Source of the DNA: an uncultured Myxococcales bacterium
GTDB lineage: Bacteria > Myxococcota_A > UBA9042
Direction: 5' to 3'
DNA length: 64,000 bases
NCBI GenBank assembly: GCA_903842345.1
Contig: CAIMLR010000039.1
Location: 1-64,000 of the forward strand
A program made the translations under genes and the position numbers. The notes beneath the pieces are model-generated. The model was not told the DNA's origin. It ran no database searches and worked only from the letters and a program-made list of their open reading frames with translations. Positions 5,196-22,997 of the stretch are shown in pieces. How positions within the stretch are numbered: the stretch's first letter is position 1; each line of letters opens with the position of its first letter.

Positions 5196-6470
5196 TTACT
5201 GCCGAACGTGGCCGTCGCCGACTACCAGCCAGCGCTCAGTCGTCAGCGAATCGAGGCCCATTGGCCCGTATGCATGCAACTTCGTTGTTGAAATACCGAT
5301 TTCTGCGCCCAAGCCGAGGCAACTGCCGTCGTTGAGCCGGGTCGACGCGTTCACCACCACGCAGGACGCGTCCACGCCCTGCGTAAACCGGTGCGCCGCG
5401 GCGATGTCGCGCGTCAAAATGCCTTCGGTATGGCGCGAGCCAAACTGGCGGATGTGCGCCAGCGCGTCGTCCAGGTCGTCGACGACGTGCATCAGGCAGA
5501 TGAGGTCGAGGAATTCCTGACCATAATCGTCCGGTTGGGCCGCCACTGCGCAGCCGCCCGCGTGCGCAATCGTCCGCTTGCACGCGCGCACCTGCACGTT
5601 GGCCGCCGTCAGCGCCCGCACCAGCATCGGCACGGCTTCATCGGCGATCGCCGCGTCAACCAGCACCGCCTCGAGCGCGTTGCACACGCCCGGCCGCTGC
5701 GCCTTCGCGTTGACGACGACGCGCGTCGCCTGCGCCAGATCGGCCGCGCTGTGCACGTACAGGTGGCACACGCCCTGATAGTGCTGAATCACCGGCACGC
5801 GCGCGACTTGCATAATGAAGTCAATCAGCTGCGTGCCGCCGCGGGGAATGCACAGGTCCAGCCCGTCGCGTTCGGAAACCAGCGCTTCGATCGCCTGGCG
5901 CTCCGCCGTCGCTGGCTGCTGCACCGCGTCCATCGGGAGGCCAACGGCGTGCAGCGACGATCGCAGCATCTCAATCAGCGCTGAATTGCTGTGCAGCGCT
6001 TCTGAACCGCCGCGCAGGACCACCGCGTTGCCCGCCTTGAGGCACAGCGCCGCGGCGTCGATCGTCACATTCGGCCGCGATTCATAGACCATGCCGATGA
6101 CGCCGAGCGGGACGCGCTGTTTGCGCACCTCAAAACCCTGCGGCCGCACTTCGCCCGACGTCACGCGCCCCACCGGATCGGGCATCGCCGCGATCTCATG
6201 CAGCGCCGTCACCAGGTTCTGGATCCCGCGATCGTCCAGCCGCAGCCGGTCGACCATGGCGCCTGAACGCCCGGCATCCACAGCGTTCTTCAGGTCGATC
6301 TGATTGGCGGCGAGGATCGTGTCCTGCCCCGTTTGCAGCGTCTCCGCCAGCCGCACCAGCCAGCGATTCTTCAGCGCGCCAGAGGCCTGCGCCAGCGTCC
6401 ACGAAGCCTCACGCGCGCGTTTCAGCACCGCTCGGGTCTCGATTCGCAAGGCTTCAGGCAAGTGGCTCAC
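5196..6470 (-). CDS. proA: Gamma-glutamyl phosphate reductase ProA
   Basis: ProA reduces gamma-glutamyl phosphate to glutamate 5-semialdehyde with NADPH, the second step of proline synthesis. The 424-residue length fits the family (about 417). Visible motifs are the cofactor-site stretch VPLGVIGMVYESRPNVT, the GNAVVLRGG loop and the catalytic Cys263 in RPGVCNALE. The frame stays open upstream into the cytochrome gene; I chose the GTG at 6470 because GGAG lies 9 bases upstream and the family N-terminus begins just after. Its usual partner proB (glutamate 5-kinase) is not in the window. It is followed by rsfS after 12 bases. Confidence 0.93.
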   Translation of the reverse strand: MSHLPEALRIETRAVLKRAREASWTLAQASGALKNRWLVRLAETLQTGQDTILAANQIDLKNAVDAGRSGAMVDRLRLDDRGIQNLVTALHEIAAMPDPVGRVTSGEVRPQGFEVRKQRVPLGVIGMVYESRPNVTIDAAALCLKAGNAVVLRGGSEALHSNSALIEMLRSSLHAVGLPMDAVQQPATAERQAIEALVSERDGLDLCIPRGGTQLIDFIMQVARVPVIQHYQGVCHLYVHSAADLAQATRVVVNAKAQRPGVCNALEAVLVDAAIADEAVPMLVRALTAANVQVRACKRTIAHAGGCAVAAQPDDYGQEFLDLICLMHVVDDLDDALAHIRQFGSRHTEGILTRDIAAAHRFTQGVDASCVVVNASTRLNDGSCLGLGAEIGISTTKLHAYGPMGLDSLTTERWLVVGDGHVRQ

Positions 6471-6553: not shown

Positions 6554-9500
6554 TTACCAACTGTAGTTGTGGCTCTGGCCGTGGCACGTGCCGCTGCAGC
6601 TCACGCGGCCGGTCGTGGCGTTGCGGGTGGTCGCCACGCTGCCGGTGTAGGACGCGCTGCTGCAGGTCGCATTGACGTCGCGCAGGCCATTCATGTGCAG
6701 CGCGGAGGTCGCCGCCGGGTGGCAACCGATACAGCCGACGTTGTTGGACGTCTTGGTGTGCGTGCTGTGCGTGCCGGAGGTCGGCGTGGTGGCGTGACAC
6801 ATCGCGCAGCTGCCGACCGTCCAGGCGGTGGTGCCCGTTCCCGCCCAATACGGCGTGACCAAGGGCGCCTGGACCGTCGCCGTGCCCGTGCGCCCGCTGG
6901 AGTGGCAGTTGCCAGTGCAGGTGCCGCGGCCGGTGAACGGCGTCGTACCCGCCGTAGTCGCCACGGCCCAGGTCATCGCGCTCGTCGGAGAACCGAGCGG
7001 GGTCGTGGGCAGCGCCGGGAACGCCACGTCGCCGTGGTGGCCCGCCGTCGTCAGATCCGCCGAGTACACATACTGCGCGATGTGGGCGATGTCGCCCGCG
7101 CCTGGAATCGTGTGACACGCGGTGCACGCAAATGCCACGTGCGTCGTGCTCGCCGCCAGGTGCTGCGCGTGCTTGCCCACGCCCAGCGTCGTCGTCGCCG
7201 TCTCATTGGCCACGCCGTGCGGCGGGTTGTTCTGCGTCGCGCCGCCATGGCAGAAGTTGCACGCCTTCCAGTCGCCACCCGTGCCGTTCGCCGGTGCATT
7301 CTGGCCGTGGCAGTTGATCGTGCTGTTGTTGCAGCTGACGTTCACCGTGCCGCCATCCAGGTTCGCGCCGTGGCACGTCGTGCATGCCACGTTGTGCTCG
7401 TCGCGCATCTGGTTGCGGATGAAGTAGTTGCTGCCGTGGTGGTTGGCGCCGTAGTTCGGCGTCGTCCAGCCCGCGAGGTTGTGGTACTTGTTGGACTCGA
7501 CCACGCCGTTCACGTGCAGGCTGCGGTCCTTCCACGTCGTCACTTTGGTCGCTGCGTCAAACGATGCCACGACCGCCGTGTGGCAGATGCTGCAATCCGT
7601 GTGCGCCACGTGCGTGCCACCGACGGGAATGCTGTGGCAAGCCAGGCCGCAGGCGTCAAAGCTGCCGTTGACCGTCGTCCACACCGGCGTCTGCTTGATC
7701 GTCCCGCTGACGTTGGCGCTGGCGAGCGTCGTGCCGTGGCAGTAGACCGCGTTGCAGGTGACGTTGCTGGCGTTGAACGCCGGCGTTGCGCCATCGCTGG
7801 TGGCGATCGTGCCAAAGTTGATGTCGTCCGTGCCATTGGCGTGCAGCGGCTGCGCGGGAACCGTGTGGCAATCCACGCACTGCCCGTCACGATGCCACGT
7901 GTTGGTGCCCAGATGCTGCTGGTGCGCGCCGACCGCCGGCTGCGACGTCAGCGTTTCACCTTGCGTGCCCTTGGGCGGCGCGGGATCATTGCTGACGGCA
8001 TCGCCATGGCAAGCCGTGCAGCTCAGGGCCGGCGCGTCAATCACGCCGTCGACGTGCCGCGTCGCGTCCTGCCAGACCACGGTCGGCGGCGCTTTGCCGA
8101 CGCCCGGGATGAACGACGCGATCACCGCGCCGTGGCAATCCTGGCAATTGTTGTTCTGGACGTGCGGCAGGCCCGGCGGCGTCGTGTGGCAGCTCTGGCC
8201 GCACGAGTCGTACGTTCCGTCCACTTTCGTCCAGACTGGCGTCATCTTCAGCGTGCCGGTCGCGTTGGCGCCAAACGGCAGCGTGTTGCCGTGGCAGTAG
8301 ACGCCGCTGCAGGTCGCGGTGGCGGTGTCAAAGCTCGGCTTCGCGCCGTTGACCGCGGCCGGGCCACCCCAGGCAAAGTCAAAGACGCCGTTGCTGTGGC
8401 TCGTCGACGACGGCACCACGTGGCAATCCTCGCACTGGACCTGACGGTGCCAATTGCTGGTGCTCACGTGCTGGCTGTGCGCGCCGACCGCCGGCTGCGT
8501 GGTCAGCGTCTCGCCGTTCGTACCCATCGGCGGCGCCGGGTTGTTGGTCGCCACGTCGCCGTGACAGGACGTGCAAGTCAGCGTCTTCACTTCCAGCACG
8601 CCGTCGACGTGCTTGGAACTGTCCGCCCAGACCGCCGTCTTGGTGCCCGGGTCGTAGCTCTGAATGACTTCGCCATGGCACGTCGCGCACGCCGTATTCT
8701 GCGGGTGCGTGCCGCCGGGCGGGTTGGTGTGGCAACTGGCGCCGCAGGAGTCAAACGTGCCGTTGACCGTCGTCCACACCGGCGTCTTGGCCGTGATGCC
8801 GCCCGGATTGGCTGCCGGCAACGTCGTCCCGTGGCAGTAGACCGCGTTGCAGGTCACGGTCGCCACGTCAAAGGCCGGCGTTGCGCCTGCCGCCGTTGCG
8901 ACGGTGCCAAAGCTCATGTTTGCCGTGCCGTCGCTGTGCGACATGCTGACCGGAACCGCGTGGCAGTCCGTGCATTGGCCATCGCGGTGCCACGTGCTCG
9001 GCGTCAGGTGATTCTGGTGCGCGCCCACTGCCGCCTGGCTGGTCTGCGTCTCGCCCTTGGTGCCAAGCGGCGGCGCCGGGTCATTCGTGGCAGCGTTGCC
9101 GTGACAGGACGTGCACGTCATCGCCTTCACTTCCACCTGGCCGTCGATGTGCAGCGCGCGATCCGCCCAGACTGCCGTCTTGGTGGCGACGTCGTAGCTC
9201 TGGATCACGTCCGTGTGGCAAGTCGCACATGCCGTGTTCTGCGGATGCGTGCCGCCGGGCGGATTGGTGTGGCAGCTCGCGCCGCAGGAGTCGAACGTGC
9301 CGTTGACCGTTGTCCACACCGGCGTCTTCTTTGTCGTCCCGCCGGAGTTGGCCGCGGGCAGCGTCGCGCCGTGGCAGTAGACCGCGTTGCAGGTCACCGT
9401 GCTGACGTCCCACGCCGGCGTGGTGCCGCCGGTCGCGGCGATGGTGCCAAAGTCGACGTCATCCACGCCGTTGGAGTGCAGCGACGACGCCGGCACGACG

Positions 9501-12500
9501 TGGCAATCCGTGCACTGGACGTCGCGGTGCCACGTGCTCGTGCTCAAGTGCTGCGCGTGCGCGCCCACCGCGGGTTGCGTCGTCAGCGTCTCGCCCTTGG
9601 TGCCCTTGGGCGGCGCCGGGTTGTTGGTCGCCGTGTCGCCGTGGCAAGCCGTGCAACTGAGCGCCGGCGCGTCGATGATGCCGTCCACGTGCCGCGTCGC
9701 GTCCTTCCAAACCACCGTCGGCGCCGCGCCGTTGAAGCCCGGCGTGAACGAACTGATCACCGCGCCGTGGCAGTCCTGGCAGTTGTTGTTCTGCACGTGG
9801 GGCGCGCCGGGCGGCGTCGTGTGGCAGCTCTGGCCGCAGGAATCGTACGTCCCGTCGACCTTCGTCCACACCGGCGTCATCTTCAGCGTGCCGGTCGCGT
9901 TGGCGCCGAACGGCAGCGTGTTGCCGTGGCAGTAGACGCCGCTGCACGTGACCGTCGCGGTGTCAAAGCTCGGCGTCGCGCCGTTGACCGCTGCTGGGCC
10001 ACCCCAGGCAAAGTCAAAGACGCCGTTGCTGTGGCTCGTCGACGTCGGCACCACGTGACAGTCATCGCATTTCACCTGGCGGTGCCAGTTGCTGCTGTTC
10101 AAGTGCTGGGTGTGCGCGCCGACCGCCGCCTGACTGGTCAGCGTTTCGCCCTTGGTGCCGAGCGGCGGCGCCGGGTTGTTGTTCACCGCGTCGCCGTGGC
10201 ACGTCGTGCACGTCAGGGTCTTGACCTCGAGAATGCCGTCAATGTGCAGCGCCTTGTCCTTCCAGACGGCCAGCTTGCCGATGGGGTCGTAGCTCTGGAT
10301 GACTTCCGGGTGGCACGTGGCGCAATTGGTGTTCTGCGGGTGCGATCCGCCGGGCGGATTCGTGTGGCAGCTGGCACCGCAAGAGTCAAACGAGCCATCC
10401 ACGGTCGTCCATACCGGCGTCTTGGCCGTCGCGCCGCCCGCATTGGCCGCCGCCAGCGTCGTGCCGTGGCAGTACACCGCGTTGCACGTCACCGTATTGG
10501 GCTCAAAAGTCGGATTCGCGCCCGCCGTCTTGGCAACCGTGCCCCACGTGATGTCCGCGGTGCCGTTGCTGTGCGTCGTGCTCTGCGGCACCGTGTGGCA
10601 ATCGACGCATTGGCCGTCGCGGTGCCACGAACTTGCCGTCAGGTGCTGCTGGTGCGCGCCGACCGCCGCCTGATTCGTCGCCGTCTCGCCGTGCGTACCC
10701 AGCGGCGGTGCAGGATCGTTCGTCGCCGCCGTGCCGTGGCAAGTCGTGCAACTGAGCGTGATCACCTCGACCGTACCGTCGATATGCTTGCCCTTGTCGA
10801 CCCACACGGCCGTCTTGGCGTTGGCGTCGTAGCTCTGGATGACGGTCGGGTGGCACATCTGGCAGTTGCTGTTTTGCGGATGCGATCCGCCCGGCGGATT
10901 GGTGTGGCAGCTCGCCCCGCAGGAATCGTACGTGCCGTTGACGGTCGTCCAGATCGGCGCCTTCTGCGTCGTCCCGCCGGGATTGGCCGCCGGCAGCGTC
11001 GCGCCGTGGCAGTACACCGCGTTGCAGGTCACAGTCGCCGGATCAAACTGTGGCAGCGTGCCGCCCGTCGTCGCCAGCAGACCAAAATCGACGTCGTCCA
11101 CGCCATTGGAGTGCAGCGTCTGCGCCGGCACTTTGTGGCAATCCGTGCACTGGACGTCGCGGTGCCACGTGCTCGCGCTCAGGTGCTGCGCGTGCGCGCC
11201 CACGGCCGGCTGGGTCGTCAGCGTCTCGCCCTTGGTGCCCTTGGGCGGCGCGGGATTGTTGCTGGCGGCATCGCCATGGCATGCCGTGCAGGTCAGCGCC
11301 GGCGCGTCGATGATGCCGTTCACGTGACGCGAAGCGTCCTTCCACACCACCGTCGGCAGCCCGCCATTGACGCCCGGCGTAAACGACTGGATCACCTCGC
11401 CGTGGCACTGCTCGCACTTGGTGCTCTGCACGTGCGGCGCACCCGGCGGCGTCGTGTGGCAGCTCGCGCCACAGGAATCAAAGGTGCCATCCACCTGCGT
11501 CCAAATGGGCTCCTGTTTCAGCGTGCCGCCTGGATTGGGACCGAACAGCGTCACGCCGTGGCAGTACACGCTGCTGCAGGTCACCGTGCTTGCGTCAAAT
11601 GTCGGCTGCGCGCCGCCCACCGTGCTCGGACCGCCAAAGCTCATTTCGGTCGTGCCGTTGCTGTGCGAGACGGAAGCCGGGACCGTGTGGCAATCCGTGC
11701 ATTGACCCTGACGGTGCCACGAGCTCGCGCTCAGGTGATTCTGGTGCGCGCCCACCGCCGCCGCAGTCGTGGCGACCTCGCCGTGCGTCCCGGTCGGCGG
11801 CGCCGGATCGTTCTTGACCGCGTCGCCATGGCACGTCGTGCACGTCAGCGTCTTCACTTCCACAATGCCGTCGATGTGCAAGCCCGGGCTGTTCCAGCTC
11901 GCGTTCTTGGTCGCCGGGTCGTAGTTGGCGATGACTTCCGTGTGGCAAATCTGGCACGCGGTGCTCTGCGGGTGACTGCCGCCCGGCGGATTGGTGTGGC
12001 AGCTCGCGCCGCAGGAATCAAACGTCCCGTTGACGGTCGTCCACACCGGCGATTTCTTGGTCGTGCCGCCCTGATTGGCCGCGGGCAGCGTGTTGCCGTG
12101 GCAGTACACGGCGTTGCAGGTCAGCGTGCCGGCGTCAAACGCAGGCGTGCTGTTGGCTGCCGTTGCGACCGCGCCCCACAGGAATTCCACAATGCCGTCC
12201 GTGTGCGTCATCGACGTCGGCACGACGTGGCAGTCCGTGCACTGGCCGTCGCGGTGCCACGAGCTCGCGCCGAGGTGCTGCGCGTGCGCGCCCACGGCCG
12301 CCTGCGAAGTCAGCGTCTCGCCGAGCGTGCCCTTGGGCGGTGCGGGGTTATTGGTCGGCGCATCGCCGTGACACGTCGTGCACGTCAGGCTGGTCAGTTC
12401 CACGCTGCCGTCGATGTGCAGGCCCGGGCTGGCCCACGTCGCGGTCTGCGTCGCTGCGTCAAACGAGGCGATGACCGGCGTGTGGCACAGCGCGCACTTG

Positions 12501-15256
12501 TCGTTCTTGGGGTGCGTGCCGCCCGGCGGGTTGGTGTGGCAACTGGCGCCGCATGAATCAAATGTGCCATCGACCTGCGTCCACTTCGGCTGCGTCTTGA
12601 TGGTGCCACCAGCTTTCGGCCCTGGCAGGGTGTTGCCGTGGCAGTAGACGCCGGAGCACGTCGTGGTCGCGGCGTCAAAAGCCGGCAGGGAGTTGCTGGA
12701 CGTCGCGACATCGCCCCACGTGAAATCGATCTGGTTGTTCGAGTGTCCGACGGAAGCCGGCACCGTATGGCAGTCCGTGCACTGCCCGTCACGGTGCCAC
12801 GCGCTCGCGGTCAGGTGCTGCGCGTGCGCGCCAACTGCCGCCTGCGTCGTCAGCGTCTCGCCCTTGGTGCCCTTGGGCGGCGCGGGGTTGTTGCTGGCCG
12901 CGTCGCCGTGGCAAGTCGTGCAGGTCAGGCCAATCACGTCGACGTTGCCGTTGATGTGCAGCTCTGCCTTGTTCCACGTCGCGACGAGCGTCGTTGCGTC
13001 GTAGCTGGCAATCACGTCCGTGTGGCACTGCTCACACTTGCTATTGTTCGGATGCTTGCCGCCCGGCGGATTGGTGTGGCAGCTCGCGCCGCACGACTCG
13101 AACGAGCCGTCGTTCTGCGTCCATACCGGCGTCTGCTTCAGCGTGCCGCCGACGTTCGGTCCGGCCTTCAGCGTCGTGCCGTGGCAATACGCCGTGGCGC
13201 AGGTCAGCGTCTCGCTGTTGAACACCGGCTGCGCGCCATCGGCGGCCGAAACCGTGCCCCAATTGAACTCCGTCACGCCATTGGTGTGCGTCGTGGACTG
13301 CGGCACCGTGTGGCAATCCGCGCACTGTCCCTGGCGGTGCCAATCGCTGCCCTTCAAGTGCTTCTGGTGCGCGCCCACCGCCGCTTGGGTCGGCAGCATT
13401 TCGCCCTTGGTGCCCTTGGGCGGCGCGGGGTCGTTGGCCAGCGCATCGCCGTGGCAGCTGGTGCAGGTCAGACCGACAACCTCGATCTTGCCGTTGACGT
13501 GCAGCGCCGGATTGTTCCAGCTCGCCGTCGCGCTGAGCGGGTCGTAGGAGGAGATGACGTCCGTGTGGCACTGGCTGCAATTGCTCGCCTGCGGATGCGG
13601 TTCTGCCGGCGGATTGGTGTGGCAGCTCGCGCCGCACGTTTCAAAGCTGCCGTCGACCTGGTTCCAAATCGGCTCATGTTTGACGATGCCGCCGACCTTC
13701 GGGTTGCCCGTGGTCACGCCGTGGCAGTACGTGTTGGAGCAGGTCACCGTGCCCGCGTCGAACGTCGGGTTGGCGCCGCTGGCAGAAGCGACCGCGCTGA
13801 AGGCAAAATCAAACACGCCGTTGGAATGCGCCGTCGAATCCGGAAGCGCATGGCAGTCGGTGCACAGGACCTGACGGTGCCAATTGCCGCCCACCAAGTG
13901 CGCCGTGTGCGCGCCGACCGCCGCTTGGCTTGTCAGCGTCTCGCCCTTGGTGCCCTTGGGCGGCGCCGGGTTGTTGTTGGCCGCGTCGCCGTGGCAGGAC
14001 GTGCAAGTGAGGTTGCCCACTTCCAGCAATCCGTCGATGTGCAGGTTCGGATTGGCCCACGTCGCCTTGTTGGTCACCGGGTCAAACGTCGCGATCACTT
14101 CTCCGTGGCAATTTGCGCAGTTGCTGTCCAGCGGGTGCTTGCCGCCGGGCGGCACCGTGTGGCAAGCCGTGCCGCACGCTTCCTGCGACCCGTCCACGAC
14201 GGTCCACGTCGGCGTTTTATTGGACGTCGCGCCAGGCGCATCGCCGACCGGCAGCGTTCCGCCGTGGCAGTAGGAGCCCGAGCACTGCAGCGTCGTCTGA
14301 TCAAACGTACCCTGCTTGGCCAGCGGTCCCCAGACAAAATCGACCTTCGAGTTGTAGTGCGTCGAGGCATACGGATTCGGCACCGGGTGGCACTCGTTGC
14401 ACGTCACATCATGGCGCCAATCGGCTTTCTTCAAGTGCGACTGGTGCGCGCCCACGCCCGCGTAGCTCGTCTCCGTATGGCCGGCGAGGTCGTACGGCGG
14501 CGCGGGATCGTCCCGCAGCTGATCGCCGTGACACATGAAGCAGGCGGGCAGCCACTGGCTGATTTTCACGTCCGCTGCATCCACGCCCGCGTCGACGTCC
14601 GGCTGCGCGACGTCCGCGCTCGCATCCGTCGCAGCATCTTCCCCGACCGTATCCGTGCCCGCGACGTCCTGAACCGGCACATCATCCACTGCGGCGATGT
14701 CCGCCACGTCATCCACGGGCACGTCCGGCGTCGCCACGTCGTCCATGACCTCGGTCAAGTCGGTCGCGTCCACGATGTCATCCGGGGTGAGGATGACGTC
14801 CGTACCCAGCGCGACGTCCTCGGGCACATCCGGCGGCACATCGACCGTCACATCGACCGTCACGTCCGGCGCCGCGTCGGGGGCGGCGTCCAGCGCTGCA
14901 TCCGGGGCAATGTCCGTCGCAACGTCCGGGGCCACGTCCGGAATCAGGATGATATCAATATCGTCAGCCACATCGGACTGCGCGTCCGCCGTCTCGGCTG
15001 CGTCGACATCCTGGCTGGCATCCGTCGCCGCATCCCCCGCAACATCCGTGGACTGCACGTCGTCGTGGGTATCCGCCTGGGTGTCGAGCTTGGCGTCCGT
15101 CTGCCCGTCGCCGTCCAATTGCGAGACGGGCGCGTCGTCCAGGACGTCGGTGCCGGTCGAACTGGTCGTCGAAGCCTTGTCGCCACAGCCCAGGATCAGG
15201 AGCAATCCACAAAGTATTCCGATCCTTGCGATGGTCGGCGTGGTCAATTCTGGCAT
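6554..15256 (-). CDS. Giant multihaem c-type cytochrome lipoprotein, about 73 haem motifs
   Basis: This 2900-residue protein starts with a signal peptide and lipobox LILGC (Cys24), followed by an Asp-rich linker (about 25-230). From Cys239 to about residue 2600 it consists of 13 tandem modules of about 182 residues. Each module carries five motifs in fixed order: CxxCHGD, CxxCHxVP, a CX4CH written CxxxYCHG, a CX3CH usually CGASCHTNPPGG, and CxxCH before VI.S(F/Y). The C-terminal part (2625-2900) adds CXXCH five times, CX3CH twice and one CX6CH. My count is 44 CX2CH, 13 CX4CH, 15 CX3CH and 1 CX6CH. The module matches the Geobacter CX4CH/CXXCH multihaem family. The ATG follows AGGGGGA. The likely role is extracellular or outer-surface electron conduction; haem loading at CX3CH sites is unproven. 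No porin or other cytochrome gene is adjacent. Confidence 0.93.
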   Translation of the reverse strand: MPELTTPTIARIGILCGLLLILGCGDKASTTSSTGTDVLDDAPVSQLDGDGQTDAKLDTQADTHDDVQSTDVAGDAATDASQDVDAAETADAQSDVADDIDIILIPDVAPDVATDIAPDAALDAAPDAAPDVTVDVTVDVPPDVPEDVALGTDVILTPDDIVDATDLTEVMDDVATPDVPVDDVADIAAVDDVPVQDVAGTDTVGEDAATDASADVAQPDVDAGVDAADVKISQWLPACFMCHGDQLRDDPAPPYDLAGHTETSYAGVGAHQSHLKKADWRHDVTCNECHPVPNPYASTHYNSKVDFVWGPLAKQGTFDQTTLQCSGSYCHGGTLPVGDAPGATSNKTPTWTVVDGSQEACGTACHTVPPGGKHPLDSNCANCHGEVIATFDPVTNKATWANPNLHIDGLLEVGNLTCTSCHGDAANNNPAPPKGTKGETLTSQAAVGAHTAHLVGGNWHRQVLCTDCHALPDSTAHSNGVFDFAFSAVASASGANPTFDAGTVTCSNTYCHGVTTGNPKVGGIVKHEPIWNQVDGSFETCGASCHTNPPAEPHPQASNCSQCHTDVISSYDPLSATASWNNPALHVNGKIEVVGLTCTSCHGDALANDPAPPKGTKGEMLPTQAAVGAHQKHLKGSDWHRQGQCADCHTVPQSTTHTNGVTEFNWGTVSAADGAQPVFNSETLTCATAYCHGTTLKAGPNVGGTLKQTPVWTQNDGSFESCGASCHTNPPGGKHPNNSKCEQCHTDVIASYDATTLVATWNKAELHINGNVDVIGLTCTTCHGDAASNNPAPPKGTKGETLTTQAAVGAHAQHLTASAWHRDGQCTDCHTVPASVGHSNNQIDFTWGDVATSSNSLPAFDAATTTCSGVYCHGNTLPGPKAGGTIKTQPKWTQVDGTFDSCGASCHTNPPGGTHPKNDKCALCHTPVIASFDAATQTATWASPGLHIDGSVELTSLTCTTCHGDAPTNNPAPPKGTLGETLTSQAAVGAHAQHLGASSWHRDGQCTDCHVVPTSMTHTDGIVEFLWGAVATAANSTPAFDAGTLTCNAVYCHGNTLPAANQGGTTKKSPVWTTVNGTFDSCGASCHTNPPGGSHPQSTACQICHTEVIANYDPATKNASWNSPGLHIDGIVEVKTLTCTTCHGDAVKNDPAPPTGTHGEVATTAAAVGAHQNHLSASSWHRQGQCTDCHTVPASVSHSNGTTEMSFGGPSTVGGAQPTFDASTVTCSSVYCHGVTLFGPNPGGTLKQEPIWTQVDGTFDSCGASCHTTPPGAPHVQSTKCEQCHGEVIQSFTPGVNGGLPTVVWKDASRHVNGIIDAPALTCTACHGDAASNNPAPPKGTKGETLTTQPAVGAHAQHLSASTWHRDVQCTDCHKVPAQTLHSNGVDDVDFGLLATTGGTLPQFDPATVTCNAVYCHGATLPAANPGGTTQKAPIWTTVNGTYDSCGASCHTNPPGGSHPQNSNCQMCHPTVIQSYDANAKTAVWVDKGKHIDGTVEVITLSCTTCHGTAATNDPAPPLGTHGETATNQAAVGAHQQHLTASSWHRDGQCVDCHTVPQSTTHSNGTADITWGTVAKTAGANPTFEPNTVTCNAVYCHGTTLAAANAGGATAKTPVWTTVDGSFDSCGASCHTNPPGGSHPQNTNCATCHPEVIQSYDPIGKLAVWKDKALHIDGILEVKTLTCTTCHGDAVNNNPAPPLGTKGETLTSQAAVGAHTQHLNSSNWHRQVKCDDCHVVPTSTSHSNGVFDFAWGGPAAVNGATPSFDTATVTCSGVYCHGNTLPFGANATGTLKMTPVWTKVDGTYDSCGQSCHTTPPGAPHVQNNNCQDCHGAVISSFTPGFNGAAPTVVWKDATRHVDGIIDAPALSCTACHGDTATNNPAPPKGTKGETLTTQPAVGAHAQHLSTSTWHRDVQCTDCHVVPASSLHSNGVDDVDFGTIAATGGTTPAWDVSTVTCNAVYCHGATLPAANSGGTTKKTPVWTTVNGTFDSCGASCHTNPPGGTHPQNTACATCHTDVIQSYDVATKTAVWADRALHIDGQVEVKAMTCTSCHGNAATNDPAPPLGTKGETQTSQAAVGAHQNHLTPSTWHRDGQCTDCHAVPVSMSHSDGTANMSFGTVATAAGATPAFDVATVTCNAVYCHGTTLPAANPGGITAKTPVWTTVNGTFDSCGASCHTNPPGGTHPQNTACATCHGEVIQSYDPGTKTAVWADSSKHVDGVLEVKTLTCTSCHGDVATNNPAPPMGTNGETLTTQPAVGAHSQHVSTSNWHRQVQCEDCHVVPSSTSHSNGVFDFAWGGPAAVNGAKPSFDTATATCSGVYCHGNTLPFGANATGTLKMTPVWTKVDGTYDSCGQSCHTTPPGLPHVQNNNCQDCHGAVIASFIPGVGKAPPTVVWQDATRHVDGVIDAPALSCTACHGDAVSNDPAPPKGTQGETLTSQPAVGAHQQHLGTNTWHRDGQCVDCHTVPAQPLHANGTDDINFGTIATSDGATPAFNASNVTCNAVYCHGTTLASANVSGTIKQTPVWTTVNGSFDACGLACHSIPVGGTHVAHTDCSICHTAVVASFDAATKVTTWKDRSLHVNGVVESNKYHNLAGWTTPNYGANHHGSNYFIRNQMRDEHNVACTTCHGANLDGGTVNVSCNNSTINCHGQNAPANGTGGDWKACNFCHGGATQNNPPHGVANETATTTLGVGKHAQHLAASTTHVAFACTACHTIPGAGDIAHIAQYVYSADLTTAGHHGDVAFPALPTTPLGSPTSAMTWAVATTAGTTPFTGRGTCTGNCHSSGRTGTATVQAPLVTPYWAGTGTTAWTVGSCAMCHATTPTSGTHSTHTKTSNNVGCIGCHPAATSALHMNGLRDVNATCSSASYTGSVATTRNATTGRVSCSGTCHGQSHNYSW
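7500..14542 (-). repeat. 13-copy tandem repeat array within cytochrome gene
   Basis: The repeat unit is about 545 bases (533-555). The DNA encoding the CX4CH motif recurs near 14264, 13720, 13178, 12640, 12091, 11558, 11008, 10466, 9925, 9372, 8830, 8289 and 7735. A higher-order period of three modules is visible: units around 11558, 9925 and 8289 share a TTPPG variant followed by an F.PG insertion and PTVVW, spaced 1633 and 1636 bases apart. The copies at about 8200-8430 and 9840-10060 are close to identical, indicating recent duplication. Confidence 0.9.
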
Positions 15257-15334
15257 AGAGTCCCCCTGATTCTGACTGGCGAAAGCGGCGTAAGCACGGT
15301 GCGCAGCACATTCCACAGGCCACGCAGCGACCGT

Positions 15335-15350
15335 TGTCACGCTGATGACA
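15335..15350. promoter_or_regulatory. Inverted repeat TGTCA-N6-TGACA
   Basis: Five-base perfect arms separated by 6 bases, centred about 87 bases before the cytochrome ATG. The 16-base dyad geometry is that of many dimeric helix-turn-helix regulators. The binding protein cannot be named. Confidence 0.35.
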
Positions 15351-15361
15351 CCCGCGAACAA

Positions 15362-15388
15362 GGGTCGAAACGGGTCGCATTTGGGTCG
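15362..15388. promoter_or_regulatory. Three GGGTCG direct repeats at helical-turn spacing
   Basis: GGGTCG occurs at 15362, 15372 and 15383, i.e. 10 and 11 bases apart, so all three face the same side of the helix. Each is followed by A or C then A/T-rich bases. This arrangement suggests tandem binding of a regulator (response-regulator style) upstream of the cytochrome gene. Confidence 0.35.
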
Positions 15389-15663
15389 CATCAAGGCGAA
15401 TCTTGATCTTCGTCAATTTTTGGCGGCATAAAACCAAAATACCGGCTTGGCAGCGCGATTTTTCGTGATCATCGCAAGGATCGCATTGGATCATCCCGCA
15501 ACACTGCGTTGGCTCAGCTACCGGCGCGACTCGGGCCGACTCGCCGCCCGTTGTCGGGCGATCTGCGTGGCGAATCACCGGGATCGCCATTGTTCCCTTG
15601 CGCGCAAGCCGCCCCGCCCTTACGCTCCGGCCCTTCCATGGCCCACTGCGGCTTGAGGCGAAC

Positions 15664-16428
15664 GTGATTCAACGCAAATCCCCAGATCAAATCCGCAAGA
15701 TGCGCACCTCAGGCGCCATCGTCGGCGACACGCTGCGGATGGTGCGCGGACTGTGCGTCGAAGGCGCGACGCTCAAGGACCTTGACCGCGCGGCTGAAGC
15801 GTTCATCCGCGGCCGCGGCGCGAAACCGACCTTCAAGGGCTACCACGGCTTTCCGGCGACGCTGTGCCTGTCGCTGAACAGTGAAGTCGTGCACGGGATC
15901 CCCAACGGCCGCAAGCTGAAGAACGGCGACATCCTCGCGATCGACTGCGGCGCGACAAAGGACGACTTCGTCGGCGACGCGGCGATCACCGTCATGGTCG
16001 GCACCGTCGCGCCAGAAGTCGCCGAGTTGGTCGAGCACACGCGGCTCAGCCTGATGGCCGGAATCGCGGCGGCGAAGGTCGGCGCGCGGCTGGGCGATCT
16101 CAGCTGGGCGATTGAATCGGTCATCAACAAGAAGGGCTACGGCATCGTGCGCGACTACTGCGGTCACGGCGTCGGCCGCGCGCTGCATGAAGACCCGCAA
16201 GTGCCCAACTACGGCAAGCCCGACAGCGGCCCCCGCATCCAGTCTGGCTGGTGTCTGGCGCTGGAACCGATGGTCAACCTCGGCGGCGATGACGTGCACA
16301 CGCTGGGCGATGGTTGGACCGTCGTGACCGACGACGGCAAGCCGTCTGCGCACTGGGAACACTCGATCGCGATTACCGACGCCGGCGTGGAAATCCTGAC
16401 GCTGACGTCCGACGGCGAGCAGCCGTAG
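15664..16428 (+). CDS. map: Methionine aminopeptidase type I
   Basis: Map removes the initiator methionine from nascent proteins. The 254-residue length fits type Ia enzymes. The five dinuclear-metal ligands are all present: Asp94 (AIDCGA), Asp105 (VGDAA), His168 (CGHGVGR), Glu201 (LEPMV) and Glu232 (WEHSI); His78 (VVHGIP) is the substrate-binding histidine. I chose the GTG at 15664 because GAGG lies just upstream and the protein begins IQRKSPDQI, the usual family start; the longer upstream frame is not supported. In many bacteria map lies in the ribosomal secY region; here it stands alone, followed after 10 bases by a lipoprotein. Confidence 0.93.
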   Translation: MIQRKSPDQIRKMRTSGAIVGDTLRMVRGLCVEGATLKDLDRAAEAFIRGRGAKPTFKGYHGFPATLCLSLNSEVVHGIPNGRKLKNGDILAIDCGATKDDFVGDAAITVMVGTVAPEVAELVEHTRLSLMAGIAAAKVGARLGDLSWAIESVINKKGYGIVRDYCGHGVGRALHEDPQVPNYGKPDSGPRIQSGWCLALEPMVNLGGDDVHTLGDGWTVVTDDGKPSAHWEHSIAITDAGVEILTLTSDGEQP

Positions 16429-16438
16429 AGGCCACGTC

Positions 16439-17029
16439 ATGCGTTCCATTGCCCCCAAGTGCCGCCGCGCGTTCTGCATCCTCGGAATGGGCGCCAGCTT
16501 CGCAGCCTGCAGCACGCCCGCAACCGACGCCCAGACAGACGCCACCGCGCTGGGCGATGCGACGCCACTGAGCGATGGCGATCCCTCGGTCGACGGCTTG
16601 ATCCTGACCGATACGGCGACCGACGTTGCCGCTGCGGACGTGCAGGCTCTGTGCCTGGCCGCATCCCCCACTGGCGTGGTCTTTGACCCGACCCCGGTGG
16701 CCAGCGGTGCGATGGCGAGCGTCAAGCTCAGCAACTGCGGCTTGCAGGGCCTGTGCATCACCAGCATCGACCTGCAGTTGCAGTCCGCCTACGTCGGCGA
16801 GTACGGTGTGACGGCCAAGGGACTGGAAGCCATCTGTCCGGGCATTGACACCAAGAACGGACCGTCGGTGAGCAAGCCTTGCTGCATCGCGCCGAATACG
16901 ACTGCGGGGCTGGAGGTCTACTTCACGCCCAAGTCCGCCAGCAGCAGCCCCAAGACCGCGCAGGTTTGGGTGACGTCCAACCTCGGCAAGACCGTCATCC
17001 TGATGCAGGGCATCGCGACCGGTCCGTAG
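16439..17029 (+). CDS. Small lipoprotein with Ig-like (ASPM/Hydin-type) domain
   Basis: A 196-residue protein with a signal peptide and lipobox ending at Cys24 (FAAC), a short Asp/Thr/Ala linker, then one beta-sandwich-like domain (about 75-196). The phrasing GVVFDPTPVASGAMASVKLSN... VYFTPKSASS... VWVTSN resembles the ASPM/SPD-2/Hydin or choice-of-anchor-D fold that binds partners in surface proteins. Four Cys (in the SNCG, GLCI, AICPG and PCC regions) may form disulfides. It starts 10 bases after map. Function unknown. A run of 7 T follows at 17036-17042 without a convincing stem. Confidence 0.75.
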   Translation: MRSIAPKCRRAFCILGMGASFAACSTPATDAQTDATALGDATPLSDGDPSVDGLILTDTATDVAAADVQALCLAASPTGVVFDPTPVASGAMASVKLSNCGLQGLCITSIDLQLQSAYVGEYGVTAKGLEAICPGIDTKNGPSVSKPCCIAPNTTAGLEVYFTPKSASSSPKTAQVWVTSNLGKTVILMQGIATGP

Positions 17030-17109
17030 CCGCACTTTTTTTCAGTCCCGCGCGCGGCAAAATCCGCCAATCGCCGAATACCTTCTGGGCGCAATGCCCG
17101 GAGGTGACC

Positions 17110-17730
17110 ATGTGGTGGTTTGGCACAACGTGCGCGGGCTGCGGCGCGCGGCTGCAACTTCTGGCCCAGAGCGGCTTCTGCGACGGCTGTTCGCCGGCGC
17201 TGGAGTGCGCCGAATCGTGGCTCGGCGCGCCGACGCTGCCCGTCGCCGCAGGTTGGGCGTACACGGGACCGCTGCAGGCGTGGATCGGCCGGTGCAAACA
17301 GGGCATCTTCAGCGATCCGCAGCTGCTGCTTCCCCCCCTGCAGCGGCTGTTGCAGCAGCTGACCGCGGCGGGACCGGTCGCGCTCGTGGCGATTCCGCCG
17401 GAGCGGACGCGGCTGCGGCAGCGCGGGCTGCATTTGCCCGATTTGCTTGTCGATTGCCTGCGGACGCGCGAGACGCCGCGCGCGTGGCTGCTCGAGCGCG
17501 TCGATCGCGCGCCGGTTCGCCGCGAGCGGGTGCGGTCGCCGCCTGTGCTCCGGGCGCGCGCGCTGCGGGAAACGCTGCCGGTCGTGCTGATCGATGATGT
17601 GGTGACGACTGGCCAGACACTGACGACGGCTTGCGCGGCGCTGCAGTCGGTCGGCCAGCCGGTCAAAGCGGCGATCTGCTTGGCCGATGCGCGGCCGCAG
17701 ATCCTCGCGCAGATTCTGGGTCAGGGCTGA
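17110..17730 (+). CDS. ComF family phosphoribosyltransferase-like protein
   Basis: This 206-residue protein has the two features of ComF/GntX proteins: an N-terminal zinc-type double CxxC (CAGC at about 9-12 and CDGC at about 26-29) and a C-terminal type I phosphoribosyltransferase PRPP loop VVLIDDVVTTGQTL (about 162-175). The middle carries IPPERTRLRQRGLHLPDLL, matching the family's R.RGFN.. region. ComF is needed for DNA uptake in competent bacteria, but many homologues have no known role. GGAGG lies 5 bases before the chosen ATG. Confidence 0.85.
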   Translation: MWWFGTTCAGCGARLQLLAQSGFCDGCSPALECAESWLGAPTLPVAAGWAYTGPLQAWIGRCKQGIFSDPQLLLPPLQRLLQQLTAAGPVALVAIPPERTRLRQRGLHLPDLLVDCLRTRETPRAWLLERVDRAPVRRERVRSPPVLRARALRETLPVVLIDDVVTTGQTLTTACAALQSVGQPVKAAICLADARPQILAQILGQG

Positions 17731-17733
17731 CGG

Positions 17734-18840
17734 TCAAGGGTGCAGCATACTCGCCGTCGCCCAACCGGACCACGCACCACCGGCGAGCGCTGCAGCAGCC
17801 GCGATCTGCACAACGCCAGCGGCGCGGGCTGCCCAACCACCGGGGGCGCGCGTCCGCACCAGCGCGGCGAGGAGCAGGGTCAGCAAGGCGAACGTCAGCG
17901 GATCGACGAACCACGCCGGGCCGAGAAATGCCGGCGCGGTCAGTGTCAGGAGCGCCAACGTGAGGCTCGCGCCGATGCCCGTCCAGGCGTCAAGGCGCGT
18001 GGCAAGCGGCGGCAGATCGGCGGCCAGCAGCAGCCCCAGCGAACCGATCCGGGCAAGCGCGAGCGCGACGCCGGCGAGGTCCCAGCCTTGGGCCTGCCCG
18101 GCAACCCGCGCAAAGCCCGGGGCGTGGGCCGGCAACGCCAGCGCGGCCACGGTCTGGCCAGCCAACAACAGCAGCGCGAGGAGCAGCAGCACCAACGCCG
18201 CGATCTTCAGGCGCGGCCGCGACCGACGGACGGCAATCCACGCGAGCAGCAGCGCGCCAAATTGCAGGCAACGCGCGATGCGATCGGCCAGAAACCACAG
18301 AGCGGCGAGCGGCGCCGCGGCGATCTCCCCCGGACCGGCAAAGCGCCAGTCAGCGGCAACTTGCGGGAGGGGCAACGCGGCCGTCAGGTGCACGGGCTGC
18401 AGCAAACTGTCGCCAAACGGCGCAAACGGCAGCACCGCCAGGACAAGCGCCAGCGGCCAGCGGAGGTCGGACTCGAGCGCCGCGGCAAGGGCGAAGCTCG
18501 CAGTCAGCGCGGCGGGCAGCAGCCAGACGAGATTGGGCCACACAATCAGGGGCGCGGGCGGCTGGAGCACCGCGACCGGCAACCACAGCAGCGCGATGCG
18601 CGCGACGGTCGACAACTGTTGCGGCGACGCGAGGCCGCGGAGCAGGAGCGCGAGGACGACAACGCCGCCAACAAGCCCCGGACCGGGCGCCCCGAGGAGC
18701 AGCGGCACGGCGGTGAGACAGGTGACAAGCGCGATCGCGCGCTGCGGCCGTATCGCCAACCACACAAGGAGAGGCAGTGGCAGGAGCGCGAGCGGCGAGA
18801 TTTCAACCGCGCCAAGCGCGAAGGACGGGAGTTGGAGCAC
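17734..18840 (-). CDS. Polytopic membrane protein of unknown function
   Basis: A 368-residue, very hydrophobic protein with roughly 9-11 predicted membrane segments dominated by Leu and Ala. It starts 2 bases after the stop of the ResB-like gene and so is the last gene of the rpsP operon. I looked for the WGxxWxWD signature of CcsA/ResC, the usual ResB partner, and it is absent. An opposite-strand frame of the same length exists, but its Arg/Gln-rich product looks like a shadow. Confidence 0.65.
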   Translation of the reverse strand: MLQLPSFALGAVEISPLALLPLPLLVWLAIRPQRAIALVTCLTAVPLLLGAPGPGLVGGVVVLALLLRGLASPQQLSTVARIALLWLPVAVLQPPAPLIVWPNLVWLLPAALTASFALAAALESDLRWPLALVLAVLPFAPFGDSLLQPVHLTAALPLPQVAADWRFAGPGEIAAAPLAALWFLADRIARCLQFGALLLAWIAVRRSRPRLKIAALVLLLLALLLLAGQTVAALALPAHAPGFARVAGQAQGWDLAGVALALARIGSLGLLLAADLPPLATRLDAWTGIGASLTLALLTLTAPAFLGPAWFVDPLTFALLTLLLAALVRTRAPGGWAARAAGVVQIAAAAALAGGAWSGWATASMLHP

Positions 18841-20399: not shown

Positions 20400-20716
20400 G
20401 AGACCTCAACAATTTGACCGGCACCGGGACACGGCGCGGGGGTGAAAAGTCTAATGGGGATCGGAGGTCGTGTCAATCTGATCCGCCACTCGCGGGAAGA
20501 ATGGCCGCCGTTGACCGCCGTCCATGGGCGCGCCGCGGTCGGTTGTGGCGGCGGCAATGGCCAAAACGTGACGACGACCGCGAAGTCCCGCAAGTCCGCC
20601 GTAAACTTCCGGAGTTTGCGCGCTGGTTCACCGCGAGTTTACTTGCCGCTGGGCGCTGCGATCCGGTACGCTGAGGGATTGCGCCGATGGTGACAAACCG
20701 GCGAGGTGAACTGTCC
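20400..20716. other. Divergent intergenic region, rpsP / surface lipoprotein
   Basis: About 315 bases without a gene. It holds the rpsP promoter on the minus strand (20448-20476) and a weak plus-strand candidate, TTGCCG (20643-20648) - 18 bases - TACGCT (20667-20672), for the lipoprotein at 20717. Nothing else stood out. Confidence 0.5.
20448..20476 (-). promoter_or_regulatory. Sigma70-type promoter of rpsP operon
   Basis: On the minus strand TTGACA (20471-20476), 17 bases, TAGACT (20448-20453). The hexamers and spacing are identical to those of the rRNA-type promoter at 139-167. The distance to the rpsP ATG is 48 bases. Confidence 0.65.
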
Positions 20717-22906
20717 ATGCGGATGCGGCCGACCAGCTTTCAAAATAGCCCAATTTTCGCCCTCTTGCCCCGCCTCGCTGCGGCGCTGATCGGCGTCTCA
20801 ACCGCCATCGCATGCAGCACGCCGGCGGCCAACAAGGATGGCGACGCGATCGCGGACGACGCGACAACGGGCGACACCGGTGCTGAACTCGGCGCGGGAC
20901 AGATCTGCCTGCCCGGCAGCGCGACCTCCTGCGCGACGGACGACTACGTGACGCGCTGCAACGACGGCGGCACGGCGATCGAGACCGTGCTCTGCACCAA
21001 CGGCGACGGCGAACCCACCAAGTGCTTTGAGAATGGCCGGTGCAGCGACTGCGTGCCAGGCCTCGGCAAGCGGTGCGCGCCAACCGACTCGACCGTGGTC
21101 GAACATTGCGACGACACCGGCCGCTGGGTCACCGACCAGCAATGCGACGCGGCCAGCGGCCAGCAATGCGCGCCCGGCGGATTGTGCCAAAAAGCCTGCG
21201 ACATCAACGTAAAAGCCAACAGCTACGTCGGATGCGCATTCTGGGCAACGGACCTCGACAACGCGTTCGTCCCCGGCGGCGCGCGGAGCTATTTTGACGC
21301 CGCCAACGCGCAGTACGCCATCGTCGTGTCCAATCCGTCAGACAAGCTGACCGCGGACATCAAGATCGGCTACTTTGAGGACGGCAAGGAACAGGAGCAG
21401 ACGCTCGACTCCCAGAACAATCCGCTGGATTTGTCGCCACTTGGCCCGGGCGATCTGCGGACGTTCCTGCTGCCGCCGCGCAACATCGACGCCACGTCAT
21501 CGACGTTCCAGGCGTGGCGGGTCACGTCGTCGGCACCGATCGCGGCGTATCAGTTCAACCCGCTTGAAAACGTTGGCGTTTACTCCAATGATGCGACGAA
21601 TCTGCTGCCGGAAGAGCTGCTTGGCACCTACTACATCGCCATGACGCGCGAGGAGACGTTCTCCATTTTGCGCAGCTTCATCACGATCGTCGCGACCCAG
21701 GGCGGCCAGACCAGCGTGACCGTGACGTTCCCGTCGCCCGACAATGACGCCAGCGGCGGAACGTGGCCGCTGCTCACGCTCGCCAGCCAGGATGGCGCGA
21801 TCAAGTCCTACAAAAGCGGCGAATCTGCGTCGTTCACGCTGAGCCAGTGGGGCACGCTGAACATCGAGACGAACATGGTCGGCAGCGATCTGACGGGCGC
21901 GGTCATCCTGGCCGACAAGAAGATCGCGGTGTTCGCCGGCAGCGAAGCCGCCAACGTGCCCAACACCAACCACTGCGACGTCGCCAAATGCAAGCCGGGC
22001 GACCTGAGCACCGGCCAAAAGTGCGGCCACTGCGTGTGGGACGGCAAGACGCAATGCGCGAGCAACGACGACTGCGGCGCCTTTGTGATCTGCTGCGCCG
22101 ACCATCTGGAAATGCAGATGTTTCCGGTGCCGGTGTGGGACAACCACTACGTGGCCGTGAAGCTGTTTCCGCGCGGCAAGGAGCGCGATTCGTGGCGCAT
22201 CCTGGCGGCGACCGACGGCACGATCGTCAATCTGGTGCCCGCGCCCAAAGATCCCAAGGGCAAGGCGGTGAGCGTGCCGGTGCTGAACAAGGGCGAGTGG
22301 TACGAGTTCGAAACCGTCGACAACTTTGAGATTCTGTCCCGCCATGAGGACAAGACGCCCGCGCCGGTGTTGATCGGCCACTTCATGGCCAGCCAGGACG
22401 CCCCGGATCCCGGCGCGCAACCGGACGATGCCGGCACAGGCGATCCCGCGTTTCTGTTGGCGATTCCGTCGGCGCAGTGGCGCTCGGAGTACGTGTTCCT
22501 GACGCCGGACAAATACCGCTTCAACTACATCTCCGTCGCGGCGCCGATCCACCGCGTCTGCGGCACGACGACGGCAAACAAGGGCAAGACCTGCACGACG
22601 GACAGCGATTGCGGCGATGGCGCGGCGACCAACGCGTGCGCGGACGACACGGTCGTGACGTTTGACGGCCAGCCGGTGCCGCCCGACCAATTCTTCAACA
22701 TTTCCAAGAGCTACAAAGGCGCGCGCTTTGCCGTGAACGCAGGTCCGCACACCGTGCGTGGCCTGCCGGTGCTCGGCACGGATGGCAAGCCCGCGGAATC
22801 GCGCGTTGCCGTCGACGTCTACGGTTTTGACCAGTACGTGTCCTACGGCTATCCCGCCGGGCTGGACTTGAAGGACCTGAAATACGTCAAGCAACCGGGA
22901 CAGTGA
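20717..22906 (+). CDS. IgGFc-binding-type surface lipoprotein
   Basis: A 729-residue lipoprotein: signal peptide, lipobox IAC with Cys33, Asp/Ala linker, then a Cys-rich stretch (about 55-165) with repeated short Cys spacings, then a large domain resembling the IgGFc-binding protein N-terminal region. Recognisable family phrasing includes AYQFNPLEN, SNDATNLLPEELLGTYY and VFAGSEAANVP. The domain was named from a mucin-like human protein; in bacteria it appears on surface proteins of unknown role. GAGGTGA lies 7 bases before the chosen ATG; an upstream in-frame ATG would add ten residues. It heads a run of five lipoprotein genes on the same strand. Confidence 0.8.
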   Translation: MRMRPTSFQNSPIFALLPRLAAALIGVSTAIACSTPAANKDGDAIADDATTGDTGAELGAGQICLPGSATSCATDDYVTRCNDGGTAIETVLCTNGDGEPTKCFENGRCSDCVPGLGKRCAPTDSTVVEHCDDTGRWVTDQQCDAASGQQCAPGGLCQKACDINVKANSYVGCAFWATDLDNAFVPGGARSYFDAANAQYAIVVSNPSDKLTADIKIGYFEDGKEQEQTLDSQNNPLDLSPLGPGDLRTFLLPPRNIDATSSTFQAWRVTSSAPIAAYQFNPLENVGVYSNDATNLLPEELLGTYYIAMTREETFSILRSFITIVATQGGQTSVTVTFPSPDNDASGGTWPLLTLASQDGAIKSYKSGESASFTLSQWGTLNIETNMVGSDLTGAVILADKKIAVFAGSEAANVPNTNHCDVAKCKPGDLSTGQKCGHCVWDGKTQCASNDDCGAFVICCADHLEMQMFPVPVWDNHYVAVKLFPRGKERDSWRILAATDGTIVNLVPAPKDPKGKAVSVPVLNKGEWYEFETVDNFEILSRHEDKTPAPVLIGHFMASQDAPDPGAQPDDAGTGDPAFLLAIPSAQWRSEYVFLTPDKYRFNYISVAAPIHRVCGTTTANKGKTCTTDSDCGDGAATNACADDTVVTFDGQPVPPDQFFNISKSYKGARFAVNAGPHTVRGLPVLGTDGKPAESRVAVDVYGFDQYVSYGYPAGLDLKDLKYVKQPGQ

Positions 22907-22997
22907 GCCATCGCGGCGCGCCCCGATTGCCCTGCCCCGCTGTTTGCCGAATCACGTTGGCCGTTCCATCGGCACCGTGCGGTTTGAAGGAGTCGCC

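Follow-up and report, generated by a model that had tools for sequence, protein, structure and literature searches.

A lipid-anchored cytochrome array with 73 probable haem sites in one chain, a candidate surface-tethered haem wire of uncultured Myxococcota

Proposed microbial haem wires have so far been mainly non-covalent polymers, formed by OmcS, OmcE and OmcZ, or short tandem proteins, of which a 12-haem case has been solved. The former build long haem chains outside the cell from smaller multihaem subunits (eight haems in OmcZ), with a His donated between neighbouring subunits in OmcS and OmcE (PMC9473688). The latter are represented by the GSU1996-type cytochromes, in which four or nine triheme c7 domains are fused into proteins of 12 and 27 haems (PMC2996986, PMC10138318), with GSU1996 itself forming a one-chain haem wire, a continuous chain of 12 haems 3-5 Å apart (PMC10138318). 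Larger proteins are on record among the S-layer multihaem cytochromes of ANME (up to 86 motifs, PMC9012536) and in Saprospiraceae and Paludibaculum (more than 100, with 112 reported, PMC11495043), and a 49-haem cytochrome of Burkholderiales displays domain indels (PMC7399161). Single-chain tandem wires, motif counts in this range and whole-domain indels are therefore already known.

We analysed a 64-kb stretch of DNA (the window) from an uncultured Myxococcota bacterium, in which the minus-strand frame 15394..6554 is open for 2946 codons. A Shine-Dalgarno-like AGGGGGA lies at 15261-15267, 5-11 bases upstream of the ATG at 15256. The features of the gene and of its downstream neighbour are as follows.

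6554..15256, minus strand: coding sequence of a 2,900-residue multihaem lipoprotein (ATG at 15256, stop at 6554-6556; purifying selection against four homologues)
15185..15256, minus strand: signal peptide MPELTTPTIARIGILCGLLLILG and lipobox Cys, codon 15185-15187 (sequence; lipobox-like Cys in homologues)
14579..15184, minus strand: Asp-rich spacer of about 200 residues, probably disordered (composition, fast evolution)
7514..14578, minus strand: 13 tandem modules of five predicted haem sites, 65 motifs in all (motif scan, module alignment, 13 TIGR01904 stretches)
9692..11326, minus strand: modules 7-9, copy A of a three-module (15-motif) block (identity of modules 7/10, 8/11 and 9/12)
8057..9691, minus strand: modules 10-12, copy B of the three-module block (duplication common to homologues L009-L012)
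6557..7513, minus strand: C-terminal cap with eight motifs of spacings 2,6,2,2,3,2,2,3 (motif Cys and His invariant in 22 homologous caps)
5196..6440, minus strand: proA, glutamate-5-semialdehyde dehydrogenase, start approximate (NCBIfam NF001221, E=2.4e-162)

The neighbours that could be identified are proA and rsfS downstream and a KH-domain gene and rpsP upstream, in agreement with a sequence-only reading of this DNA, which had noted that no porin-cytochrome partner is adjacent. The function of proA is unrelated, no second haem-motif gene occurs among the predicted genes of the window, and Rfam found no RNA elements in it. Two long antisense frames on the plus strand, 6569-12556 (1995 codons) and 12638-15406 (922 codons), are probably not genes and would owe their length to high GC and biased codon use. 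Upstream, candidate frames at 15709-18840 have no Pfam match, and parts of them are conserved at 57-70% in the same place in L009 and L011. Further along, at 20687-27233, the window encodes a large secreted protein with an IgGFc-binding domain and another with multiple TIG domains.

The open reading frame, motif scan and alignment confirmed the size and coordinates given by the sequence-only reading, as well as its count of 73 motifs arranged as 13 sets of five plus eight. By spacing, the motifs divide into 44 CX2CH, 15 CX3CH, 13 CX4CH and one CX6CH; every one of the 73 CH dipeptides in the protein falls inside such a motif, and the mature chain has only two Cys elsewhere, the lipobox Cys and C2911 (ORF numbering). 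Each of the 13 modules spans about 180 residues and keeps the order CX2CH, CX2CH, CX4CH, CX3CH, CX2CH at 41-85% mutual identity, with the remaining eight motifs packed into the last 318 residues. This amounts to 36 residues per haem, with gaps between motifs of 47 residues or fewer inside modules. Modules 7, 8 and 9 resemble modules 10, 11 and 12 at 81%, 75% and 85% identity, respectively, a block duplication visible in all four 13-module homologues (L009-L012), and judging from these alignments the array was lengthened by duplicating the block 7-9 to give 10-12.

At the N-terminus, the lipobox LILG↓C follows the signal peptide and precedes the spacer, which has 26 Asp in its first 100 residues; both elements were reported before and both are present. 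Most complete homologues have a lipobox-like Cys as well (VAS↓C, LVA↓C, LAS↓C or ANA↓C). The earlier emphasis on Asp is weakened, since spacers of similar length in homologues L017, L024, L028 and L032 are Gly/Ala/Ser-rich and other lipoproteins of the window likewise have Asp-rich linkers; a special metal-binding role for the Asp was dropped on account of those homologues. The spacer evolves fast, with 39-54% identity to homologues and a Ka/Ks of 0.17-0.43 near synonymous saturation.

A search with the Geobacter CX4CH/CXXCH repeat model, which the sequence-only reading had proposed as a check, returned 13 stretches of the protein (TIGR01904, NCBIfam, E = 1.1e-91, 300.7 bits), well above the curated cut-off of 27 bits. 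Like the TIGR01904/PF09698 GSu_C4xC__C2xCH cytochromes of Geobacter and Anaeromyxobacter, the array follows a CX4CH with a second haem motif, but here that motif is CX3CH, and the pair sits inside a five-haem unit of about 180 residues that occurs in 2-15 copies and is closed by an eight-motif cap. With the GSU1996 type it shares a single polypeptide of tandem multihaem domains. It differs in having a five-haem rather than a three-haem unit, CX3CH and CX4CH sites, a lipid anchor and up to 83 motifs in the family, and in having conserved His for all haems where the GSU1996 type has one His-Met haem per domain. The c7 model PF14522 reached 166 bits overall with no single stretch passing. As in MtrC, OmcA and other outer-surface cytochromes of porin-cytochrome systems, the array protein is a probable outer-membrane lipoprotein that would lie beyond the conduit. 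MtrC and OmcA belong to a ten-haem class with additional beta-sheet domains, and a profile search found no MtrC/MtrF match in the array protein. PgcA of Geobacter, an extracellular protein that acts on Fe(III) oxide, is likewise lipid-anchored with long low-complexity spacers, but has three haems, with its repeats between them (PMC5732950). Against the giant cytochromes of ANME, Saprospiraceae/Paludibaculum and Burkholderiales, whose haem numbers are comparable or larger and which set a precedent for whole-domain indels, the array is rightly placed among the larger multihaem cytochromes and holds no record. The literature searched contained no description of the five-haem CX4CH/CX3CH unit, the 5n+8 grammar, the module number fixed per orthologue group or the dedicated cap.

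Canonical haem maturation machineries prefer CXXCH, and on this general ground haem might be bound at the 44 canonical sites only, with the CX3CH and CX4CH sites structural. Four pieces of evidence make this very improbable. Across 202 modules, the non-motif His 45, 48, 72 and 149 are invariant, and each module, the last one too, is followed just past its fifth motif by a boundary His (22 of 22 cap starts); this His precedes 174 of the 179 non-first modules and none of the 23 first modules, the five exceptions probably being modules cut one residue too late. The result is a stoichiometry of five conserved non-motif His for five motifs, enough to offer every haem a distal ligand. A sixth non-motif His (H55) is variable and was lost in 60 of 60 Anaeromyxobacter-type modules, which retain the other five (boundary His in 48 of 60, in a gappy alignment). 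Invariance of the motif Cys and His themselves is partly by construction, as modules were chosen by spacing pattern; what carries the argument is the non-motif His together with the motif strings of whole open reading frames, and complete homologues lose no motif of any spacing. Spacing also changes while the motif stays: a CX3CH of the module aligns with CXXCH in the Anaeromyxobacter-type cousins, and CX4CH aligns with CX3CH at homologous sites. Finally, MmcA carries haem on both CX3CH and CX4CH sites, as detected by mass spectrometry (PMC11024163). The cap behaves in the same way. Among 22 homologous caps no motif Cys or His varies at any of the eight sites, several caps have CX4CH in place of CX6CH, and the eight motifs are accompanied by more than eight invariant non-motif His. 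Because of the His stoichiometry, the spacing changes with the motif kept and the MmcA precedent, we read the odd-spaced sites as haem sites that look real; the multihaem c-type assignment made earlier thus gains support and probably extends to all 73 sites, most likely all bis-histidine ligated. The same genome encodes maturation genes of both types, CcmF, CcmB and CcmC with an ABC ATPase (System I parts) and ResB/CcsA (System II), at C2:240277, C21:35036-38055 and C20:89690-92048.

Used as a query against 84,980 species genomes, the module matched 41 loci, in metagenome-assembled genomes (MAGs) labelled Myxococcales, Deltaproteobacteria or Polyangiaceae that come from lakes and groundwater; more distant matches fell in Anaeromyxobacter, Archangium, Labilithrix and Sandaracinaceae. 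Close relatives of the array protein are MAG-derived without exception, and within the class the module was found at E<1e-50 in 10 of 52 genomes, all from the window's own family. The architecture described by the sequence-only reading recurs in these relatives: written as motif spacings, complete near-group genes read [22432]n followed by 26223223, 24223223 or 24223233, with n = 2, 3, 4, 5, 6, 12, 13 or 15 and hence 18 to 83 motifs (5n+8). No motif is missing from them, and the only deviation is one L024 module that reads 22332. The full 73-motif pattern (44/15/13/1) is present in four assembled genes of three other genomes, and modules compared with four homologues have Ka/Ks of 0.10-0.19; recurrence under purifying selection excludes a chance origin of the pattern. 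Two further array copies exist in the same genome, one with n = 3 (C30:122-124 kb) and one probably split over the C34/C30 contig ends. The latter consists of truncated array cytochromes at C34:52443 (N-terminal part, five motifs) and C30:160348 (C-terminal part, 22 motifs), probably a single paralogue whose assembly broke in the repeats. Among the Anaeromyxobacter-type cousins, L034:7721-17089, L049:3069-11606 and L046:6554-15349 each hold 65-80 motifs in a single frame, with [22422]-like modules and a tail that is different and mostly CXXCH; a 40-motif cousin (L045) belongs to a named strain, Anaeromyxobacter sp. PSR-1.

Module number is conserved between orthologues. Five orthologue-like proteins, the window protein included, have 13 modules each, identically ordered and 75-90% identical, and a given window module nearly always finds its best match in the homologue module of the same position, the exceptions being near-identical pairs such as 9/12. 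Chromosomal neighbourhood is also shared by L009 and L011. Elsewhere in the family, L019 and L020 have 15 collinear modules each and L074 and L029 have three each. Because repeat arrays easily lengthen or shorten, an n that stays constant between proteins 75-90% identical suggests that length is under selection. This constancy bears on the main rival to a wire, an electron store or capacitor that would buffer electrons, on the surface of the cell or in its periplasm, during a shortage of acceptors, so that length would mean capacity rather than reach. Storage has been assigned to GSU1996 and other many-haem periplasmic cytochromes (PMC10138318) and suggested for sludge proteins with more than 100 motifs (PMC11495043), and a range of n from 2 to 15 between paralogues with a constant module fits it. 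However, a store needs no lipid anchor, long spacer or invariant dedicated cap, and the fixed number and order of modules within orthologue groups point to a constrained length or geometry. We regard storage as a serious but unlikely primary role, and storage and wire roles may coexist. A more tentative proposal, which we would put below an even chance, is that the family consists of surface-tethered single-chain haem wires of counted length, built from near-identical five-haem links joined by the boundary His and ending in a fixed eight-haem tip, with the link number (3, 5, 6, 12, 13, 15 and others) held by selection in each orthologue group and several defined lengths present in one cell.

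We also searched for structural relatives. AlphaFold2 gave a mediocre apo model of modules 4-7 (52 sequences, pLDDT 69.8, pTM 0.37) and an unusable one of module 13 with the cap (22 sequences, pLDDT 36.7). Sequence and profile searches for a solved relative in the PDB were empty or returned chance matches, and Foldseek with the medium-confidence four-module apo model had no PDB match at E<=10. Repeating haem modules, and a His past each module that recalls the neighbour-donated His of OmcS and OmcE (PMC9473688), could be taken to mean that many chains assemble end to end through the cap into filaments like those of OmcS, OmcE and OmcZ. We give this little credence: no relation to any of these solved filament subunits was found by sequence, profile or apo-model fold, and covalent concatenation together with a lipid anchor would make polymerisation unnecessary.

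The genome carries a porin-cytochrome-like cluster on another contig (C14:4803-13941, L077), which argues against the earlier suggestion that the array is a stand-alone conduit. One strand of the cluster encodes an NrfD, an FeS protein and a 4-haem cytochrome, and the other a 36-haem lipoprotein, a 468-residue putative porin and a 13-haem protein; a sigma-54 regulator and a kinase adjoin it. While the 36-haem lipoprotein matches the MtrC/MtrF domain II/IV model and TIGR01904, the putative porin has no match in Pfam, NCBIfam or the PDB and owes its name solely to its signal peptide and to a position flanked by the 36-haem and 13-haem genes; the MtrB/PioB model PF11854 had no match in the genome. 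We consider this a putative extracellular electron transfer cluster, possibly of an undescribed porin-cytochrome type. Of the 22 genomes of the order, 14 carry the putative porin gene, which adjoins 13-haem and 36-haem-like genes wherever the flanking sequence covered extends far enough and is present in 9 of 10 array genomes compared to 5 of 12 genomes with no array (one-sided Fisher p about 0.026, calculated by hand with kinship ignored), a modest association between unlinked genes. A raw count of 15 of 22 genomes with modules against 14 of 22 with the porin, implying near-perfect co-occurrence, was discarded as an artefact, five weak module matches being the conduit's own 36-haem cytochrome. 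Given the 9 of 10 versus 5 of 12 distribution, the array probably serves the conduit as an accessory and does not replace it. Another electron-transfer locus of the genome (contig C22, L085) encodes a 12-haem c7-type cytochrome and, next to it, a 7-haem protein that carries a fused cytochrome b561 domain; a response regulator and a probable sensor kinase belong to the same locus.

With moderate confidence, we propose that the array protein is a surface-tethered single-chain haem wire or arm that extends extracellular electron transfer beyond a porin-cytochrome conduit. The protein would be a secreted c-type cytochrome tethered by its N-terminal lipid and disordered spacer, most likely to the outer face of the outer membrane, and would form one covalent chain of 73 haems, made up of 13 links of five haems each plus a terminal domain with eight. 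Electrons received from the conduit encoded elsewhere in the genome would pass from haem to haem along the array to the C-terminal cap, the presumed functional tip, which would touch an acceptor such as an Fe(III) or Mn(IV) mineral, humic matter or another cell. The boundary His may stitch modules together, a guess from its position that likens it to the His donated between OmcS or OmcE subunits. At the spacing of OmcZ, 58 Å per 8 haems (PMC9473688), a straight chain of 73 haems would extend about 50 nm. Since a lipid anchor leaves the side of the membrane unfixed, the lipoprotein may instead face the periplasm, where it could bridge the inner and outer membranes and feed the porin-cytochrome complex, a role compatible with a C14 cluster that has its own 13-haem protein and no long periplasmic carrier beside it. 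We judge such a bridge improbable, as a straight chain of this length would exceed the periplasm and the n = 3 and n = 13 paralogues of one genome would both need to fit.

The wire reading points to extracellular electron transfer in uncultured Myxococcota of freshwater and groundwater. The array family constitutes a covalent series (n = 2 to 15) in which unit, anchor and tip stay the same, and thus offers natural proteins for measuring the length dependence of electron transfer, while the cousin in Anaeromyxobacter sp. PSR-1 is a possible route to testing in a cultured organism.
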